A stretch of 33,419 bases of DNA from Sulfuricaulis sp. (GCA_024654125.1 JANLIC010000160.1:1-33419), one strand, 5' to 3'; shown: positions 16,374 to 29,490, counted from the stretch's first letter. Translations and numbers: made by a program. Notes: generated by a model not told the origin, from the letters alone.

Positions 16374-17126
16374 TCAGAAAATGAGCTTGAGACCCACCAG
16401 CAGGGTAATGATCTGGAACACCCGCTTGATCCAGAGATTACCTTTAATAATGGACCAGTGGGCGCCGAGGTAGCCGCCCAGGAGCGAGCCGAGCAACAGA
16501 GCCGGCAGCCACGACCACTTGATATCCCCCAGAAGGCCCAAGGTCACGGCGCCGGTGCCGTTCCAGAACAATCCCACCAGCACCAGGGTGTAGGCCACCG
16601 CGCGCCGGTAGTCGAGCCCGAACCAGCGCACCAGCCACATCGTGCAGAAGAGCCCCGTACCTGAGGTGAGCGAACCGTTGAGCACGCCGACGACGAACAA
16701 CCCGAGACCACCCAGGACATAACCATGCCGCGTGCGGTGGATGGGCGCATGCACCATTCCCAGCTGCCGGTTGAAGTACGAGTAGAGACTGAGACCAATG
16801 GTCAGAACGCCCAGCGCGACGCGGGCGAACCGGTCCGGCACATCGAGGATGAAGGCAGCGCCGAGGATCACGCCGGGCAGTCCGGCGGCGAGAATGAACA
16901 GAGAGAATTTCCATTCGAGTGAATCTTCGCGCAAGTGCCGCAGCGTCGCACCCACGCCCAGCGCCACGCTCGCGACCTTGTGGGTGGCGAGTGCCACACC
17001 GAACGGCAGCCCCAGGAAAATCAACGCGGGGAATTGCAGCAGTCCGGCCCCGCCACCGGCGAACGCCGAGAACACATTCGCCACCAGCGACACCAGCAAC
17101 AGAATCAGCTGCTCGATCCCGTTCAC
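16374..17126 (-). CDS. TSUP family transporter (TauE/SafE-like)
   Basis: The 250-residue protein has about eight membrane helices arranged in two halves. The N-terminal 'FSAFAGGGAGLLQFPALIFLGLP' and the second-half 'GVLNGSLTSGTGLF' are the glycine-rich signatures of the TSUP (sulfite exporter TauE/SafE) family. Members move sulfite, sulfoacetate or other organic anions across the inner membrane. The substrate cannot be read from sequence; a sulfur compound is a reasonable guess given sat nearby. A second TSUP gene in this window (23885-24597) is broken. Confidence 0.87.
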   Translation of the reverse strand: MNGIEQLILLLVSLVANVFSAFAGGGAGLLQFPALIFLGLPFGVALATHKVASVALGVGATLRHLREDSLEWKFSLFILAAGLPGVILGAAFILDVPDRFARVALGVLTIGLSLYSYFNRQLGMVHAPIHRTRHGYVLGGLGLFVVGVLNGSLTSGTGLFCTMWLVRWFGLDYRRAVAYTLVLVGLFWNGTGAVTLGLLGDIKWSWLPALLLGSLLGGYLGAHWSIIKGNLWIKRVFQIITLLVGLKLIF

Positions 17127-18950: not shown

Positions 18951-20162
18951 ATGTCAAAATTGGTCAATCCACATGGCGGCGGAGAGCTGAAACCCCTCTT
19001 GCTCCAAGGCGCCGCGCTCACCGAAGAAAAGCAGCGCGCACAATCCCTGCCAAAAGTAAAAATCACTTCGCGCGAGACCGGCGATGTCATCATGATGGGT
19101 ATCGGCGGCTTCACTCCGCTGACCGGCTTCATGACCAAGGCCGACTGGCAGGGCGTTTGCGATGGCATGAAAATGGCCAATGGCCTGTTCTGGCCGATCC
19201 CGATCACCCTCTCCACCGACAAGGCCACGGCCGACGGCATCAAGACCGGCGCCGACGTGGCGCTGGTGGATAGCGAGTCCGGCGAGATCCTGGCCACGAT
19301 GAAGGTTTCCGAGAAATACACCATCGACAAGGCCCACGAGTGCATGACGGTGTACAAGACGACTGACCTGGAACACCCCGGCGTCAAGATGGTGATGGAA
19401 CAGGGCGACGTCAATCTCGCCGGCACGGTGAAAGTGCTCTCCACCGGCACGTTCAAGCAGGAATACGGCAACCAGTTCCTGACCCCGGCCGAAACCCGCG
19501 AGATGTTCAAGAAAAATGGCTGGTCCACCGTCGCCGCGTTCCAGACCCGCAACCCGATGCACCGCTCCCACGAATACCTCGCCAAAGTCGCCATCGAAAC
19601 CTGCGACGGCGTGCTGATTCACTCCCTACTCGGCAAGCTCAAGCCCGGCGACATCCCGGCCAGCGTGCGCTCCAGGGCCATCGGCGTCCTGATCGAAAAA
19701 TACTTCGCGAAGAACACCGTAATCCAGGCCGGCTACCCGCTGGACATGCGTTACGCCGGTCCGCGCGAGGCGCTGTTGCATGCGCTGTTCCGCCAGAATT
19801 ATGGCTGCTCGCACCTTATCGTCGGCCGTGACCATGCCGGCGTAGGCGACTACTACGGTCCGTTCGATGCGCATCACATTTTCGACGAGATCCCGAAAAA
19901 CGCGCTCGAGACCAAGCCCCTCAAGATCGACTGGACCTTCTGGTGCAACAAGTGTGATGGCATGGCTTCCATGCGTACCTGCCCGCACGAGGCCGGCGAC
20001 CGCATCCTGCTGTCCGGCACCAAGCTGCGCAAGGCGCTGTCGGAAGGCGAAGAAGTCTCCAGCAAGTTCTCGCGTCCCGAGGTGCTGGAAATCCTGCGCA
20101 CCTACTACGGCAGCCTGACCGAGAAGGTCGAGGTCAAGCTCTCCGGGCATTCAGGCCGATAG
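18951..20162 (+). CDS. sat: ATP sulfurylase, homo-oligomeric type
   Basis: The 403-residue enzyme interconverts ATP + sulfate and APS + pyrophosphate. The nucleotide motif [10 protein letters not shown] is at residues 198-207 and GRDHAG at 292-297. A CxxC...C-x-H cluster (C332, C335, C344, H346) resembles the zinc site of bacterial Sat proteins. This family is unrelated to the assimilatory CysDN pair. In sulfur oxidisers it runs in reverse, making ATP from APS; in other bacteria it can be assimilatory. No aprAB or qmo genes are adjacent, so the direction is not fixed by context. An AGGAG site (18934-18938) precedes ATG 18951. Confidence 0.95.
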
Positions 20163-20322: not shown

Positions 20323-20352
20323 AAAAAAAAGACCCCGCCTCTCGGCGGGGTC
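20323..20352 (-). terminator. Rho-independent terminator of the cold-shock gene
   Basis: Read on the minus strand, GACCCCGCC-GAGA-GGCGGGGTC forms a 9-bp GC stem followed by eight T. It lies 35 bases past the stop of the cold-shock gene. On the plus strand no T run follows, so it is not an obvious terminator for sat. Confidence 0.93.
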
Positions 20353-20386
20353 CTCGATTCAAAGCCTGCTTCCGCAGTACTTGGCG

Positions 20387-20590
20387 TTAGGCCGGCTGAA
20401 CGTTCGCTGCCGACGGACCTTTCGGGCCATCTTGCAGCTCATATTTCACCTGCTGACCTTCGGTCAGGCTCTTGAAGCCCGAACCTTGGACGGCGGAGTG
20501 ATGCACGAAGACATCCTTGCTGCCATCGGACGGGGTAATGAAACCGAAGCCCTTGGCGTCGTTGAACCACTTTACTGTTCCTGTATTCAC
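20387..20590 (-). CDS. Cold-shock domain protein (CspA family)
   Basis: The 67-residue single-domain OB-fold protein binds single-stranded RNA or DNA. It has '[15 protein letters not shown]' containing RNP1 and 'DVFVHHSAV' containing RNP2. It is an RNA chaperone of the CspA/CspD group; which paralogue it is cannot be told. The start appears to be GTG 20590, preceded by AAAGAGGT about 5-6 bases away. No in-frame ATG exists nearby. The gap up to msrA leaves room for the long structured leader typical of cold-shock mRNAs. Confidence 0.94.
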
Positions 20591-20900
20591 AAAAATACCT
20601 CTTTAATAGTTGAATTGCGATATTTTGCAGATCATTCCTGAAAGCGTTTGCGGGAGTAGCTGCCGAAGAAACTGGGAGGAACTACCGAACTGTCTGCAAG
20701 AACTGTACTGCAAGTCCGGAACTATACAGAAGTGGAGATGAATAGCTACTTATTCTTTAGGCCGGGGGACCGGGTGGCTGGCTGCTTTAACTCTATCTGA
20801 AGCATACATGCCTTATCCTTAAGGCATATCAGTTCCCGCAACCAATAAGCCAAAGCCCAGTCATATAACTAACGCATTGATCATTCGAAAGAGGCAGAAG
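20591..20900. promoter_or_regulatory. Divergent spacer between cold-shock gene and msrA, with an inverted repeat
   Basis: The 310 bases hold no credible gene. ATGCCTTA-TCCT-TAAGGCAT (20808-20827) is an 8-bp perfect inverted repeat 73 bases before the msrA ATG, and may be an operator or leader hairpin. The left part is presumably the long leader and promoter of the cold-shock gene. Confidence 0.4.
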
Positions 20901-23136: not shown

Positions 23137-23874
23137 ATGTCTCCTGATCGTCGCAGCTTCATTCTCGTGATGTTGGTGATTACGGCGCTGCTGGCCGTTC
23201 TCATGCTGCCGTCGATGGCGCAAGACCCCGCTTATCACATTTTCGCCGACCGCCGCGGCCTATTGGGCATTCCGAACTTCCTGAACATCACCACCAACCT
23301 CGCGTTTCTGGCCGCGGGCATCGCGGGGATCCTGTTTTGTACTTCGCCCCAGAAAGTGCTTGGCGCTCGACAGGCGTGGCTGGCGTGCTTCGCCGGCGTG
23401 GCGCTGGTGAGTGTCGGGTCCGCTTACTATCACCTGGCACCTGACAACAACACGCTGGTGTGGGACCGTCTGCCGATGAGCATCGGGTTTATGGCGCTGT
23501 CGGTGGCGGTGCTGACCGAATACGTCAACCCGCGCCTGGAGAAATTCCTGCTCGCCCCCGCCATCGTCCTCGGGATTGCCAGCGTAATTACCTGGCACTA
23601 CACCGACGATCTGCGCCTGTACGTGCTGGTGCAGTTCCTCCCTCTCCTTGTGATTCCGGCAATTCTGCTCCTGTACCACCGCCCCGGAAAAAACCACGTA
23701 TTCCTGCTCACGGCGCTCGTGCTCTACATGGTCTCGAAACTGACCGAGCACTATGACCATGCCGTTTTCAGTCTGACAAGCGAAATTATCAGCGGCCATT
23801 CGCTCAAACACCTGCTCGCCGCGACGGCGCTGTTCGTCGTTGCTTTGATGCTCCGGAAACGCTCGATTCAGTAG
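23137..23874 (+). CDS. Ceramidase-like (CREST superfamily) membrane protein
   Basis: The 245-residue protein has about seven hydrophobic helices. The hallmark polar positions of the alkaline ceramidase/CREST hydrolases are visible: S95-x3-H99 in GSAYYH, D110 in WDRLP, and H221-x3-H225 in GHSLKH. These coordinate a catalytic zinc within the membrane in characterised members. An amide hydrolase acting on a lipid is the natural inference, but bacterial substrates are unknown and classical ceramides are rare in this group. The start is ATG 23137. The next gene, a broken transporter, begins 10 bases after the stop. Confidence 0.8.
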   Translation: MSPDRRSFILVMLVITALLAVLMLPSMAQDPAYHIFADRRGLLGIPNFLNITTNLAFLAAGIAGILFCTSPQKVLGARQAWLACFAGVALVSVGSAYYHLAPDNNTLVWDRLPMSIGFMALSVAVLTEYVNPRLEKFLLAPAIVLGIASVITWHYTDDLRLYVLVQFLPLLVIPAILLLYHRPGKNHVFLLTALVLYMVSKLTEHYDHAVFSLTSEIISGHSLKHLLAATALFVVALMLRKRSIQ

Positions 23875-23884
23875 AATTTAACGC

Positions 23885-24597
23885 ATGCCGTTCGATCTCT
23901 CTGCTATTGCCGTTCCGCTGTGGTTACCCGTGGCATGGGGTCTGCTGGTGGGCCTGGTGTTTTCGCTGGTGGGTGCGGCCGGGGGCATCCTCGCCTCGTT
24001 CGGCCTGATATCGGTGATCGGCCTCACCGATCCCAACATGGTGAAACCCATGGCGCAGGCGCTGACGCTGGCGGCACCGCTGGTGGCGGTGCCGGCGTAT
24101 TACCGGCAGTGCCGGCTGGTAGCGCCGCCTTCGAGGGACTGATCGCCACCGGTGGCGAGCCCTGTATGTTCGGCGTGCGCAGCCGCTGCTGGTCGCCGCT
24201 CACCGCGGAATTCGAATTCGGCGAGGAACATTTCCGTTACCGCCCATGGGTGGCGTTCACCATGGGCATGGGGATCGCCATTCTGTCCTCGGCGCTGGGC
24301 GTGGGCGGCGGCTTCCTGCTGGTGCCGTTCATGGCGCTGATGTTGCATCTGCCGATGTTCGTCATCGCCGGTACCGCAGCGCTCGCCATTTTCGTGAGCT
24401 CGGCCACGTCGATCGCCAATTACGTCGCGCTTGGAGTGCGCCTCGACCTGCCGTTGCTTATCTTGCTGCTCGCCGGTACTTTCCTTGGTGCCTGGCTTGG
24501 CCCACGGCTGTCGCGCGTCCTGCGCGAGCGCTGGTTGAAAATTCTGCTGACGCTGGTGCTGTCGGGGATTGCGTTGCAATATTTTGGGGTGCTCTAG
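23885..24597 (+). pseudogene. TSUP (TauE/SafE-like) transporter gene broken by frameshift and internal deletion
   Basis: The first 79 codons, from ATG 23885, encode a normal TSUP N-terminus with 'FSLVGAAGGILASFGLISV' and 'KPMAQALTLAAPLVAVPAYYRQCRLV'. After base 24121 this frame runs into a stop at 24140-24142. From about 24121 the frame beginning AGC-GCC-GCC carries the second half: a soluble linker ('AAFEGLIATGGEPC'), then 'ALGVGGGFLLVPF' and four or so helices to the stop at 24597. The joined length is ~237 residues, and the helices expected between the two parts are missing. So this is a deletion plus a shift, not merely a single-base error. It is probably non-functional. Confidence 0.8.
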
Positions 24598-24681
24598 CGA
24601 TGGTCAAGTGGTGACGCATTTCGTAGCTGACGGAACAGCAATTTCATCTCCTCTGGCAGATCGCGCATACAACTAATCCCA
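24598..24681. other. Non-coding start of the AT-richer accessory block
   Basis: Base composition shifts here from the GC-rich TSUP gene to lower-GC sequence that continues through ~28630. Nothing recognisable is present in these bases. Confidence 0.3.
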
Positions 24682-24861
24682 ATGTTGGCATTGTGGACTG
24701 GCATAGGGCTTGGGCAGCTCGCTGCCAAGCCTAAAACACGCCGTTTTGCAAACAAAAAATATCATGAAAGGAATTGCTATGCTTATCGTAAGGGGAAACC
24801 ACCATTAGAAATAAAGGCTATTGCCATTGAAGATTTGATGGTTTGGCACTTCATGAATTGA
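24682..24861 (+). CDS. Short 59-residue open frame, unrecognised, possibly a gene remnant
   Basis: ATG 24682 opens a frame that ends 13 bases before the next gene. The second half is protein-like in composition ('YHERNCYAYRKGKPPLEIKA', then a Trp/His/Phe-containing end) and rich in Lys and Arg. No ribosome site is evident, and the frame is open for another 17 codons upstream, so it may be the tail of a decayed larger gene. A bulged hairpin (GGCTTGG-g-CAGC / GCTGCCAAGCC, 24707-24731) lies inside it. No family recognised. Confidence 0.3.
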   Translation: MLALWTGIGLGQLAAKPKTRRFANKKYHERNCYAYRKGKPPLEIKAIAIEDLMVWHFMN

Positions 24862-24874
24862 TTCAAGTACAACC

Positions 24875-25840
24875 ATGAAATTCAAAAAAATTGTGATGCT
24901 CAGCTACGTTCAGAGCAATTTCAGCGAGCAGGCAGGACAACGCTTGGCGCGTCTGGGTGAAGAAATCAGAGCGCTGCCAGAAGATAGCACCGAAATCGCT
25001 CACCATATCGCCGACGCCGATTGTCTAGTGGTCGAAACCGGCATTTACGTCGATCAGACCATCATCAACGCCGCTCCGCGCTTGAAATACATAGGCGTGT
25101 TCGGGTCGGGATACGGCCGGGTGGACGTTCAATATGCCGCCAGCCGGGGTATCACGGTATGCAACACCCCCGGTTACAGCACGGAGGGTGTGGCCGAGTT
25201 TGTATTCGGGGTGATTCTGGAACACATCAGAGAAATTGAACGAGCCAAATCCCGGGCGCGCGACGGTCATTACTCAGGATTTGGCTATCGTGGCAAAGAA
25301 CTAAAAGACAAGAAATTCGGAATCATAGGTTTGGGGCGGATCGGTGGAAGAATTGCCGAGATTGCCAGCAAAGGATTTGGCGCCGACGTTTCCTACTGGT
25401 CGAGGAACCGAAAACCGGACACCGAAAAAACTGGCGTTCGTTTCGCGGAAATCAGCGAGGTACTGAGCAGCAGCGACATCCTCTCGATCAATCTTCCCCA
25501 TGTTCCGGCAACGGAGAAATTCATCAATACCGATCGGATAGCTTTAATCAAACCGGGCGCCGTCATCGTGCACCTGGCGCCGGTCGAGGTGATCGACCTC
25601 GATGGGCTGGAAACTAGACTGAAACGCGCTGACGTGACATTTATTCTGGACCATTCAGATGAACTGTCGCCGGATCAGGCCAATCGACTGGCACGACACC
25701 GCCATTGTGTCATGTATCCGGCAATCGCATGCATCACCCAAGAAGCCAAGCAAGCGAAGTTAGCGATGTTTTTTGAAAATATTGAAAACTATCTCGATGG
25801 AAACCCCCCAAGTATGCAATTCAACCTGGCGGTGAAATAG
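24875..25840 (+). CDS. D-2-hydroxyacid dehydrogenase-like protein lacking catalytic Arg and His
   Basis: The 321-residue protein has the two-domain NAD-dependent D-isomer dehydrogenase architecture. A substrate-domain 'NTPGYSTEGVAEF' is near 97-109, and the Rossmann motif GLGRIGGRIA is at 152-161. The motif that carries the catalytic arginine (INxxRGxxVD) reads VHLAPVEVID, with proline at 236. The motif with the active-site histidine (PHxA) reads PAIA at 282-285. NAD binding is likely retained but classical hydride transfer on 2-keto acids is doubtful. It may be a pseudoenzyme or use different chemistry. The next gene follows on the same strand. Confidence 0.85.
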   Translation: MKFKKIVMLSYVQSNFSEQAGQRLARLGEEIRALPEDSTEIAHHIADADCLVVETGIYVDQTIINAAPRLKYIGVFGSGYGRVDVQYAASRGITVCNTPGYSTEGVAEFVFGVILEHIREIERAKSRARDGHYSGFGYRGKELKDKKFGIIGLGRIGGRIAEIASKGFGADVSYWSRNRKPDTEKTGVRFAEISEVLSSSDILSINLPHVPATEKFINTDRIALIKPGAVIVHLAPVEVIDLDGLETRLKRADVTFILDHSDELSPDQANRLARHRHCVMYPAIACITQEAKQAKLAMFFENIENYLDGNPPSMQFNLAVK

Positions 25841-25842
25841 TG

Positions 25843-25926
25843 ATGGCAACGCTGAATAATTCAATTGTCCACTCCCATTTCCCGGAGATTGCCTCAAGCA
25901 CGACAACACAAAGCAACGATTGCTAG
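25843..25926 (+). CDS. Tiny 27-residue open frame between two accessory genes
   Basis: ATG 25843 begins 3 bases after the dehydrogenase stop, with GGCGGTGAA as a possible ribosome site ~6 bases upstream. It encodes a Ser/Thr/Asn-rich peptide ending in Asp-Cys and stops at 25926. Close coupling to the preceding gene is the only support; it could equally be chance. Confidence 0.2.
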   Translation: MATLNNSIVHSHFPEIASSTTTQSNDC

Positions 25927-25943
25927 TACTGACACAATCTTCA

Positions 25944-27506
25944 ATGCAAAAGAATTTTTTCAATACTGACAAGTCGCGTGCGACACGATATCACGTGAGC
26001 GGAAAACACCTGGAGTCGCTTTTATATCGTGGACAATTCATTCTTGGGCCGGTGTTCGCCGATAACCTGGATGGATGGCAAAAGTTATCAATCGGGACTG
26101 CGCTCAAGATCACCGCCCATCCTGAGTTATCTCTGTGCCAGCGATTCGACGGGAGCCGCTCGCTCACATTGATTGGCTACCTCCTCGACCCTGAACATCC
26201 CCTTGCTAAAGACTCGGACATCCTGGATGAGCTGCTGGGAAGGTATTCCTCGATTCAGGCACTCGTGGACGCAACCTTTCGCCTGGGAGGACGGTGGCTG
26301 CTGATCGCACAGCAAGGCAACCACGGCTTTCTATTCAACGATCCGATGGGCCTGCGGCAGGCGTTTTATACCGATAAGGAATGCACCGACGGCAACCTAT
26401 GGGTAATGTCGCAAGCGGGAATGGTGGCGGAGCGGCTGGGGCTGACGATGGACCCATTGGCCCGCGACTACGTCAAACGGCGATTATCCAAAGGCCATAC
26501 GGAATATATGTGGCCGGGCTCGTCGAGCCCGTTCCGCGAGATTCGGCATTTACTGCCCAATCATTATTTGGACCTCGGCACCGGCCGGTGCCATCGGTTC
26601 TGGCCGAACGAGCCGCTCGTCCCGATCACGTTCGACGAGGCGGTGGAACGCCTGACCAAACGCTTGCCACAACTCGTCGAGGCAGCGGCGAATCGTTTTG
26701 AACTCGTTCTGGGAATTACCGCGGGCATCGATAGCCGTCTGGTCTTGGCCGCATCGAAGTCTATGCACCAGCAGTTATCGTTCGTCTCTGTCAGACAGGT
26801 CAGAATGCAAGCCGATCACGCCGACCTGATGATTCCGGCGAATTTGTTGCGCAAGCTGGAACTGCCTCATGAGGTGATTCATGTCCAAACGCGAATGAGC
26901 GATGCCTTTCGGGAGGTGTACGATAAAAGCGTTTTCCTGGCGCACGCCCATTACGGACCCGATGCCGAAGCGCTACTGGGACATTTCGGCCGCACCAAGG
27001 TGGCGGTAACGGGTAGCGGATCCGAGATTTGCCGTGCCGACATGCGGCTGGGGATACCCTTTCTTGAGAATAAACCCAGTCCCGAGTTCCTGGCGATGGT
27101 AGATATAGGAGGGCTGCATCCCTTTACGATACAGAACGTGCAAGCGTGGTGCGCTGCCGCGCCCCATGGCGGCGGCATCGAATTTCTCGATTTGTATGAA
27201 TGGGAACAAGGCAGCGGCAACTGGCTGGCCATGACACAACTCGAATTTAGCATCGCCTGGCGTGATATCTTTACCCCGTTTAACTGCCGCGATGTGCTGA
27301 TTTCCCTGTTAGCGGTGCCGAAACCGTATCGTGCGTCTCCTGACTGCAGGATTTATCACGAATTAATCAGCCGCCTGTGGCCGGAAGTCATGTATGAGCC
27401 GATTAATCCGCACAAGAATCAAACTCGGGGAAAGAGACATTTTCAATCAATAAAATTCCTGGCCAGATATGGTCTCGCCCGCGCCTTGTATTGGGGTCGT
27501 CACTGA
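25944..27506 (+). CDS. Asparagine-synthase-like PP-loop protein
   Basis: The ~520-residue protein resembles asparagine-synthase-type proteins. The N-terminal ~200 residues look like a degenerate class II amidotransferase fold ('LTLIGYLLDPEHP', 'RWLLIAQQGNHGFLFNDPMGLRQAFY'), but there is no N-terminal catalytic cysteine. A PP-loop follows at about 259-265 (TAGIDSR, compare SGGxDS), in the ATP-pyrophosphatase domain. Such proteins activate a carboxylate by adenylation and often serve secondary metabolism or surface polysaccharide pathways. The start is uncertain: ATG 25944 is given, while TTG 25920 would add eight residues, and neither has a clear ribosome site. Ammonia from glutamine is unlikely, so another amine donor or none is implied. 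Confidence 0.75.
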   Translation: MQKNFFNTDKSRATRYHVSGKHLESLLYRGQFILGPVFADNLDGWQKLSIGTALKITAHPELSLCQRFDGSRSLTLIGYLLDPEHPLAKDSDILDELLGRYSSIQALVDATFRLGGRWLLIAQQGNHGFLFNDPMGLRQAFYTDKECTDGNLWVMSQAGMVAERLGLTMDPLARDYVKRRLSKGHTEYMWPGSSSPFREIRHLLPNHYLDLGTGRCHRFWPNEPLVPITFDEAVERLTKRLPQLVEAAANRFELVLGITAGIDSRLVLAASKSMHQQLSFVSVRQVRMQADHADLMIPANLLRKLELPHEVIHVQTRMSDAFREVYDKSVFLAHAHYGPDAEALLGHFGRTKVAVTGSGSEICRADMRLGIPFLENKPSPEFLAMVDIGGLHPFTIQNVQAWCAAAPHGGGIEFLDLYEWEQGSGNWLAMTQLEFSIAWRDIFTPFNCRDVLISLLAVPKPYRASPDCRIYHELISRLWPEVMYEPINPHKNQTRGKRHFQSIKFLARYGLARALYWGRH

Positions 27507-27640
27507 CATAAAAAGGGTTATTCGAGAGCTGATGTTGATCCGGCTGCGATCGGGCTACCCCTATTTCGGGTTTTGAGAAATTAATTCTCTGATGTATATG
27601 TTGGCAAGCAGTTGGCGGCTAGATCATCGGAATCATAATC

Positions 27641-28627
27641 GTGACGGATAATACGCAGGAAACAACCTCGCACGCCTCACAGCACCCCGGGTGGACCCCC
27701 CATTTGGGCCGGGCACGCTGGCACCGCGCGGATTTTTTCCTGCTGGCTTACATTCCGGCCATCACATTGATCGCCTGGTGCTTGCCGGAGCGTTTGTGGG
27801 GCGGCGTATGTAACGCTTTGGCACGTTTTGTAATGGCGCTACGCCGTTCGCGTACTCGCGGGTATTACCGGAGATTCAACGAGATTCTCGGAGGGCATCG
27901 TACCGCGCTCGATGTCAAAGAAATTCTTGCCTGTTATTTGGCGAAGAACCACCTTGGGCGTGTGCAGTGCATGCAATGCTATGCGCCGGGAGGGTGGTCT
28001 CCGCCGATCCGTCTTGAAGGACAAGAACACATCGAGCGTGCGCTGGCCGCGGGCAAGGGCGCTATTCTCTGGATCGCGCCCATGGCGTCCAGAGACCTGA
28101 TAACCAAGATGGCGCTTCATCAAGCGGGGTACCGTGTTTCTCACCTCAGCCGCTTTGATCATGGCTACTCGATCAGCCGCTGGGGTGCTCGATTGTTCAA
28201 CCCGCTCTGGACGCGGATTGAGGAGCGCTATCTCGCAGAGCGCCTAGTGATGTCGCTCACGGTGCAAGTGACCCCGTTGCGGTTGTTAATCAAGCGATTG
28301 CGAGAAAATCGGGTGGTCTCTTTGACGGCGAATCATGAAGGCGTGAAGTACCCTCATCCACTGCCTTTTCTGCAGGGCACCATCCAGCTGGCCGAGGGGG
28401 CACCGTCGCTGTCCGTGGCGACAGGCGCGGCGCTATTGCCTGTTTTTACCGTGCGCGAGCCGGACGGAACGTTCGTCACGAAAATAGAATCTGCCCTGGT
28501 CTCAGCCACGGGGGGCAGCCCAGCACAGGAAATCGATTCGCTGATCACGCTATTTGTTAAGCTGCTCGAATCCTATACATTGCAGTTCCCGTGTGACTAC
28601 CAAGGTTGGGGATTGAGTGGTGTGTGA
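27641..28627 (+). CDS. LpxL/HtrB-like acyltransferase-fold protein lacking the catalytic histidine
   Basis: The 328-residue protein matches the lysophospholipid/lipid A acyltransferase family. There is one N-terminal membrane helix (~residues 32-50), 'GKGAILWIAP' before the active site, and 'LTANHEGVKYPHPLPFLQG' in place of the family's D..G....PFFG segment. Aligned with E. coli LpxL without gaps, the HX4E motif becomes P147-MASR-D152, so the catalytic His is proline. It may be inactive, or a binding or assembly protein. The start is GTG 27641. It follows the asparagine-synthase-like gene by 134 bases on the same strand. Confidence 0.75.
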   Translation: MTDNTQETTSHASQHPGWTPHLGRARWHRADFFLLAYIPAITLIAWCLPERLWGGVCNALARFVMALRRSRTRGYYRRFNEILGGHRTALDVKEILACYLAKNHLGRVQCMQCYAPGGWSPPIRLEGQEHIERALAAGKGAILWIAPMASRDLITKMALHQAGYRVSHLSRFDHGYSISRWGARLFNPLWTRIEERYLAERLVMSLTVQVTPLRLLIKRLRENRVVSLTANHEGVKYPHPLPFLQGTIQLAEGAPSLSVATGAALLPVFTVREPDGTFVTKIESALVSATGGSPAQEIDSLITLFVKLLESYTLQFPCDYQGWGLSGV

Positions 28628-28890
28628 CGGCGGATTCAGAGATCAATCCCCGCGCCACCAGTCGAATATAGCTTGATGTAATCCGACTGACCCATCCCCT
28701 ACAGTACTGGTAGTTTTGTTGTGTTCATTGTTCAGACAAGCTCTGAAAAGCTGCTGCACTGGTGGGAACGGCGCGTGGCGCGGTCGCCGCCCGAGAGGAA
28801 AAGAAATTGGTCATCAATAACCGGATGCGAAGCCGTGGTTACAAGGTTCGCAACTGACTTTGAAAATCTAAGGCACCTCTGGCCGAGTGG

Positions 28891-29490
28891 ATGGAAAGCG
28901 CTGATTCCATATGGCACTACTGGTTCGGTCCCGACGCGGCCGATGCCGCAATCATCCGCGAAAAATCAGCGCTGTGGTGGAAGAAGAACCCGAAAGTTGA
29001 TGAAGAAATCCGGTGGCGCTTCGAGCCGACACTGGCGGAGGAAATGCGCGGCGTGCTGGAATCCTGGAGCACAAACCCGCGCGGACATTTGGCCCGGATA
29101 CTCCTTTGCGACCAGTTCCCACGAAACATATATCGCGGAGAACCCGAGTCTTTCATGTATGACGCACGGGCAAGGCAACTGGCACGCGAGGCACTCGACC
29201 GTGGCTTGGACAGGCCGTTGCATCCTGTGGAACGGGTATTTGTTTACCTTCCCTTCGAGCACTCCGAATCCCGTCAGGATCAGGAGTTCAGTGAGCAATT
29301 GTTCACGTCGCTGCTCGGGGAAGTCACACCGGCCCTGAAGCCGCCGTTTCAGAATTTCCTGGATTTCGCCCATAAACACAAGGAAATTATCGACCGCTTC
29401 GGACGCTTCCCGCACCGCAACGCCATTCTCGGGCGCGCTTCCACTCCCGGGGAGATCGAATTTCTGCAACAACCGGACTCATCGTTCTGA
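28891..29490 (+). CDS. DUF924 family protein
   Basis: The 199-residue protein is a typical DUF924 member: 'SIWHYWFGPDAADAAIIREKSALWW' at the start, 'ILLCDQFPRNIYRG' in the middle, 'ERVFVYLPFEHSES' and a final 'RFGRFPHRNAILGRASTPGEIEFL'. The family is all-helical and TPR-like, cytoplasmic and widely conserved, but of unknown function. ATG 28891 gives the normal family N-terminus; GAGTGG directly upstream is a poor ribosome site. The upstream spacer (28628-28890) holds no recognisable gene. Confidence 0.9.
   Translation: MESADSIWHYWFGPDAADAAIIREKSALWWKKNPKVDEEIRWRFEPTLAEEMRGVLESWSTNPRGHLARILLCDQFPRNIYRGEPESFMYDARARQLAREALDRGLDRPLHPVERVFVYLPFEHSESRQDQEFSEQLFTSLLGEVTPALKPPFQNFLDFAHKHKEIIDRFGRFPHRNAILGRASTPGEIEFLQQPDSSF

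Follow-up and report, generated by a model that had tools for sequence, protein, structure and literature searches.

A conserved block of divergent dehydrogenase-, asparagine-synthase- and acyltransferase-like genes in Sulfuricaulis, possibly an amide-forming modification module

When three neighbouring genes encode proteins with recognisable folds but without the residues on which catalysis in those folds depends, are they the remains of a dying operon, chance neighbours at one site or partners in one pathway? This question is raised by a locus of Sulfuricaulis sp., which an initial annotation had described as three same-strand genes in succession, the first and third for degenerate enzymes, that might build or attach an acyl or amide modification. 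The window analysed here is one whole contig of 33,419 bases in a 2.4 Mb draft genome. Within it, the block consists of three consecutive genes on the + strand, encoding a D-2-hydroxyacid-dehydrogenase-like, an asparagine-synthase-like (AsnS-like) and an LpxL/PatA-like protein (Table 1). The coordinates bear out the reported succession, including a gap of exactly 134 bases ahead of the third gene (27507–27640); the gap between the first two genes is 103 bases. The assigned folds also stood, through Pfam for the first and third proteins and through family-profile alignment to canonical asparagine synthases for the second. The start that had been placed at 24682 did not: the 59-aa frame there is not kept in the congener G001, so it is probably, judging from this comparison, leader DNA of the block and not a gene. 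Sequences resembling promoters or terminators turned up in the region no more often than chance allows, and PADLOC, which reports anti-phage defence systems, gave no match for the three block proteins or the flanking DUF924 protein.

Table 1 Features of the block and the sequence ahead of it, in window coordinates
Feature	Position	Strand	Length	Basis or remark
Split TauE/SafE-like frame, frameshifted pseudogene	23885-24597	+		Two partial frames; Pfam TauE on second half
Short open frame	24682-24861	+	59 aa	No family match; indels in congener
D-2-hydroxyacid-dehydrogenase-like gene	24875-25840	+	321 aa	Pfam/NCBIfam, alignment to solved structures
AsnS-like gene	25944-27506	+	520 aa from ATG 25944	Profile comparison, family alignments
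LpxL/PatA-like acyltransferase-fold gene	27641-28627	+	328 aa	Pfam PF03279, PatA profile match, alignments

The dehydrogenase-like protein matches both domains of its family (Pfam 2-Hacid_dh_C, 1.2e-34; 2-Hacid_dh, 5.8e-25). Aligned residue by residue with solved glyoxylate reductases and phosphoglycerate dehydrogenase (PGDH), it has an intact GxGxxG nucleotide-binding site (GLGRIG). The catalytic Arg of the ARG motif is replaced by Pro (LAPVE versus IARGK) and the catalytic His of the PHI motif by Ala (YPAIA versus TPHIG), and the position of the catalytic Glu is ambiguous in the alignment. Both substitutions are common to all three genomes that carry the three genes, namely the window's own, that of the congener G001 and that of a member of another genus in the same family, G012.

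The AsnS-like protein of the window matches no Pfam family, including Asn_synthase, and none of the NCBIfam lasso-cyclase models, and has a weak NCBIfam match to one PP-loop model (NAD synthase, 0.0028). The relation to canonical asparagine synthases emerges from profile comparison: against those of neighbouring loci, the family profile aligns with a probability of 97.6% (E 3.4e-12), and the aligned stretch takes in part of the N-terminal domain, the PP-loop and the motif that follows it. The protein comprises a partial Ntn-type N-terminal domain lacking the Cys, a PP-loop (TAGIDSR) and a TGSGSE motif, after which the C-terminal half is not alignable to the canonical enzymes. The N-terminal Cys is absent from this protein and from every homologue aligned, and each of these homologues keeps the PP-loop, (T/S)(A/S/G)GxD(S/T)R. 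A profile match to a viral protein in the PDB (0.0024) extends over only 55 residues and was judged to be chance. The frame is open from a TTG at 25920, but comparison with the protein of the congener favours a start close to ATG 25944, which appears the more likely of the two.

The third protein scores above the gathering cut-off of Lip_A_acyltrans (PF03279, 2.1e-8; 34.1 bits versus 22.3), and its family profile matches PatA structures at 2e-9. The His of the HX4D motif is Pro147, with Asp152 kept (P147-X4-D152). At the His position, Ser or Pro stands in two more distant relatives, which keep the Asp, and Pro or Gln in others from different parts of the phylum; two other LpxL-like proteins of the loci examined have the His. 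The nearer members of the subfamily share an HLxRxxHG motif. Targeted paper searches on HX4D motifs found nothing. Structure predictions from two-sequence alignments gave unusable models for both the AsnS-like and the acyltransferase-like protein (pLDDT 29 and 32, respectively).

The alignments thus confirm what had been reported of the residues: the first and third proteins lack canonical catalytic residues and the second lacks the N-terminal Cys. Together with the frameshifted TauE-like gene that adjoins the block, these losses speak for a decaying operon made of dead genes, but several lines of evidence contradict this reading and make it highly improbable. First, the block is under purifying selection and is not decaying. 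Between the window and the congener, dN/dS (NG86) is 0.174 for the dehydrogenase-like, 0.177 for the AsnS-like and 0.154 for the acyltransferase-like gene, equal to the flanking genes measured in the same way (ceramidase-like, 0.206; DUF924, 0.190), and the frames are full-length in both congeners. Second, the same substitutions stand in genomes that are 52–84% identical, and the His of the acyltransferase is lost in other families and another class as well. Because the same losses recur across homologues, they are features of subfamilies and not signs of decay. The term 'degenerate' in the initial annotation was therefore misleading and is, on these alignments, better read as 'divergent subfamily'.

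Does the block itself recur? The initial annotation had taken a gene order kept from genome to genome, with the residue losses recurring, as the mark of a system. The congener carries the whole block in the same order (83, 79 and 77% identity), with the same substitutions. In G012, all three genes are present (identities of 57, 58 and 68% in the parts that the assembly contains), again with the same substitutions, and on one 1.3 kb contig the dehydrogenase-like gene ends next to where the AsnS-like gene begins. The acyltransferase-like gene of G012 lies at a broken contig end, the contig beginning inside the gene. This assembly consists of short contigs with runs of 100 Ns between them, and the adjacency that it shows is that of the first two genes. 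The apparently unlinked position of the acyltransferase was traced to contigs strung together in this way, spaced as if sorted by length.

Among about 60 relatives searched, the dehydrogenase-like and acyltransferase-like genes occur at high similarity in these three genomes only, and are present only where this clade of the AsnS-like protein occurs. In about 370 genomes sampled evenly across the class, the dehydrogenase-like gene had no close relative outside its own genome, and the AsnS-like and acyltransferase-like families were rare; a search of genome contigs for related loci returned the congener alone. The block of the window genome and that of G001 go back to a common ancestor, so independent evidence of coupling comes essentially from one further genus. 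A conserved accessory three-gene block is nonetheless well supported, and because its genes travel together and stay under selection, they probably form a small unstudied pathway.

The site of the block, between the ceramidase-like and DUF924 genes, varies in content among four congeners (window 23874–28891 versus L024, L061 and L062). G006 and G005 have the ceramidase-like gene beside the DUF924 gene but lack the block; the site holds a reverse-strand frame resembling the CBS-domain gene of G001 in the former and a MoaB-like frame (named by eye) in the latter. G001 itself has the block, a TauE/SafE-like remnant and the CBS-domain gene. The split TauE/SafE-like frame of the window falls inside the variable site and outside the functional block; an intact TauE gene is present elsewhere in the window (16374–17126). 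Such variation in CBS gene, MoaB-like gene and TauE remnant would suit three genes that are inherited together at one accessory site without a common pathway, as would the width of both intergenic gaps, the full gene order being seen in two congeners only and the occurrence elsewhere of AsnS-like paralogues without the other two genes. We nevertheless consider such mere cohabitation rather unlikely, because the second genus has all three genes, with the dehydrogenase-like and AsnS-like genes again adjacent, and because of the restriction of the dehydrogenase-like and acyltransferase-like genes to relatives with this AsnS-like clade.

Composition by itself is no sign that the block was imported recently. 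The lower GC reported for the region holds in that GC3 is 0.59–0.65 in the block versus mostly 0.67–0.83 in other genes, but the difference is mild and the downstream DUF924 gene is about as low (0.66). As the DUF924 gene is native and occupies the same site in congeners that lack the block, GC does not show the block to be foreign, and we rejected it as proof of such an origin. A tRNA-borne insertion was also rejected, since neither the window nor the corresponding site of the congeners contains a tRNA. Elsewhere in the window are an Rfam match to the cspA thermoregulator RNA (20325–20719, − strand; 95.8 bits versus a gathering score of 78) and an ATP-sulfurylase gene (18951–20162), which suggests sulfur metabolism in the organism.

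The neighbourhoods of more distant relatives give a mixed picture: those of the AsnS-like and acyltransferase-like proteins are frequently, though not invariably, found in surface-glycan loci. Other genomes of the family have up to three AsnS-like paralogues each, 43–47% identical. The paralogue in locus L026 lies between canonical AsnS genes, together with glycosyltransferases, a polysaccharide deacetylase and a hexapeptide transferase, and those in L030 and L032 lie in loci related to this glycan locus. In both L030 and L032, the AsnS-like gene is directly followed by a gene of a common family that has no Pfam match and appears GNAT/FemAB-like by eye. At least half of the paralogues in the family are outside glycan loci, several of them isolated, with efflux, redoxin, transaldolase or aldolase genes as neighbours. 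Further afield, one AsnS-like relative adjoins an O-antigen ligase with a flippase nearby, others are near genes that read by eye as sulfotransferase-, flippase- and glycosyltransferase-like, and relatives on plasmids lie in annotated glycan clusters (rhamnose/flippase, capsule), one of them with wecB/wecC; one plasmid relative has no glycan neighbour. The acyltransferase subfamily adjoins Acetyltransf_6/FemAB-type (FemAB/GNAT-type transferase) genes in three separate genomes; in some more distant members of the phylum it does not, and some relatives in other classes have no glycan neighbours.

What might the three proteins do together? β-Lactam synthetase and the lasso cyclases have the AsnS fold and form amides without glutamine hydrolysis. 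We tentatively propose that the block is an accessory module whose proteins modify a surface glycan, lipid or lipid-linked sugar by forming an amide, and what follows on reaction, substrate and division of labour among the three proteins is what we infer under this proposal. The cassette would comprise the partners of one modification pathway. The AsnS-like protein would use ATP and its PP-loop to activate a carboxylate, to which it would then couple an amine; as it lacks the Cys that frees ammonia from glutamine, it would be expected to use free ammonia or an amine-bearing substrate, like β-lactam synthetase and the lasso cyclases. The dehydrogenase-like and LpxL-like proteins may have taken on changed roles in the same pathway, whether in binding, in regulation or in a transfer reaction of altered chemistry.

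The target would most likely be a surface glycan or a sugar linked to a lipid. There is precedent in WbpS, an AsnB-like amidotransferase that converts a uronic acid to a uronamide, and in the FemAB-like VimA, which attaches an amino acid to that sugar (PMC7468200), and enzymes of the AsnS family catalyse lactam, amide and nitrile formation (PMC13060819). It is this precedent, the lactam and amide chemistry of the family and the absent glutaminase Cys that lead us to favour an amide-forming glycan or lipid modification. Here the suggestion of the initial annotation is upheld in part: many distant relatives occur in glycan loci, but within the window the block has no glycan gene next to it and several AsnS-like paralogues stand alone. 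We count against the glycan model this lack of glycan context around the block, the AsnS-like paralogues outside glycan loci, the acyltransferase relatives without glycan neighbours, the separate contig of the acyltransferase-like gene in G012 and the unalignable C-terminal half of the AsnS-like protein. Targeted literature searches for AsnS-like proteins with uronic-acid amides in capsules found nothing. The fuller claim is that three re-purposed enzymes (a glutaminase-free AsnS-like ligase, a nucleotide-binding dehydrogenase-like partner and a His-less LpxL-fold transferase) form a compact pathway to an amide-linked surface glycan or lipid decoration of a kind not described before; this we hold to be distinctly unlikely.

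The product could instead be a small molecule or modified peptide, made by β-lactam-synthetase-like, lasso-cyclase-like or peptide-amidating chemistry. AsnS-family proteins without the glutaminase Cys do make such products in known pathways. The lactam, amide and nitrile formation described above suits this alternative, as do the position of the block away from glycan genes and its sporadic distribution, of the kind seen in specialised metabolism. A pathway of this kind would nevertheless have to do without a conserved precursor-peptide gene, the 59-aa frame not being kept in the congener, and without a carrier protein, NRPS/PKS or lasso B protein, none of which was found near the block; the many distant relatives in glycan loci also argue against it. 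We regard this alternative as rather unlikely.

Whichever reading holds, the block draws together an AsnS-like family without a Pfam match here and a His-less LpxL-like subfamily, both conserved though they lack textbook catalytic residues. If both families are active, a name assigned from the fold alone is wrong for them, and the block offers a three-gene unit in which both can be tested.

Finally, we compare the block with the systems that it most resembles. The first protein shares fold and GxGxxG site with D-2-hydroxyacid dehydrogenases such as glyoxylate reductase and PGDH, and differs from them in having Pro and Ala at the catalytic Arg and His. With glutamine-hydrolysing asparagine synthases and WbpS-type amidotransferases (TIGR01536, TIGR03108; PF00733 plus GATase_7), the second protein aligns in the partial Ntn-type domain, the PP-loop and TG(S/D)G..E, and relatives of both occur in glycan loci. 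Unlike these enzymes, it has neither Cys2 nor the RGPD motif, matches no Pfam family, carries TAGIDSR in place of SGGxDS and has a C-terminal part that does not align. The β-lactam synthetase and lasso-peptide cyclases differ in their setting, since the block has no lasso or lactam pathway genes nearby. The third protein, by contrast to the LpxL/PatA lipid acyltransferases to which its family score and the PatA structures tie it, belongs to a subfamily in which the catalytic HX4D His is replaced and a new HLxRxxHG motif is present.
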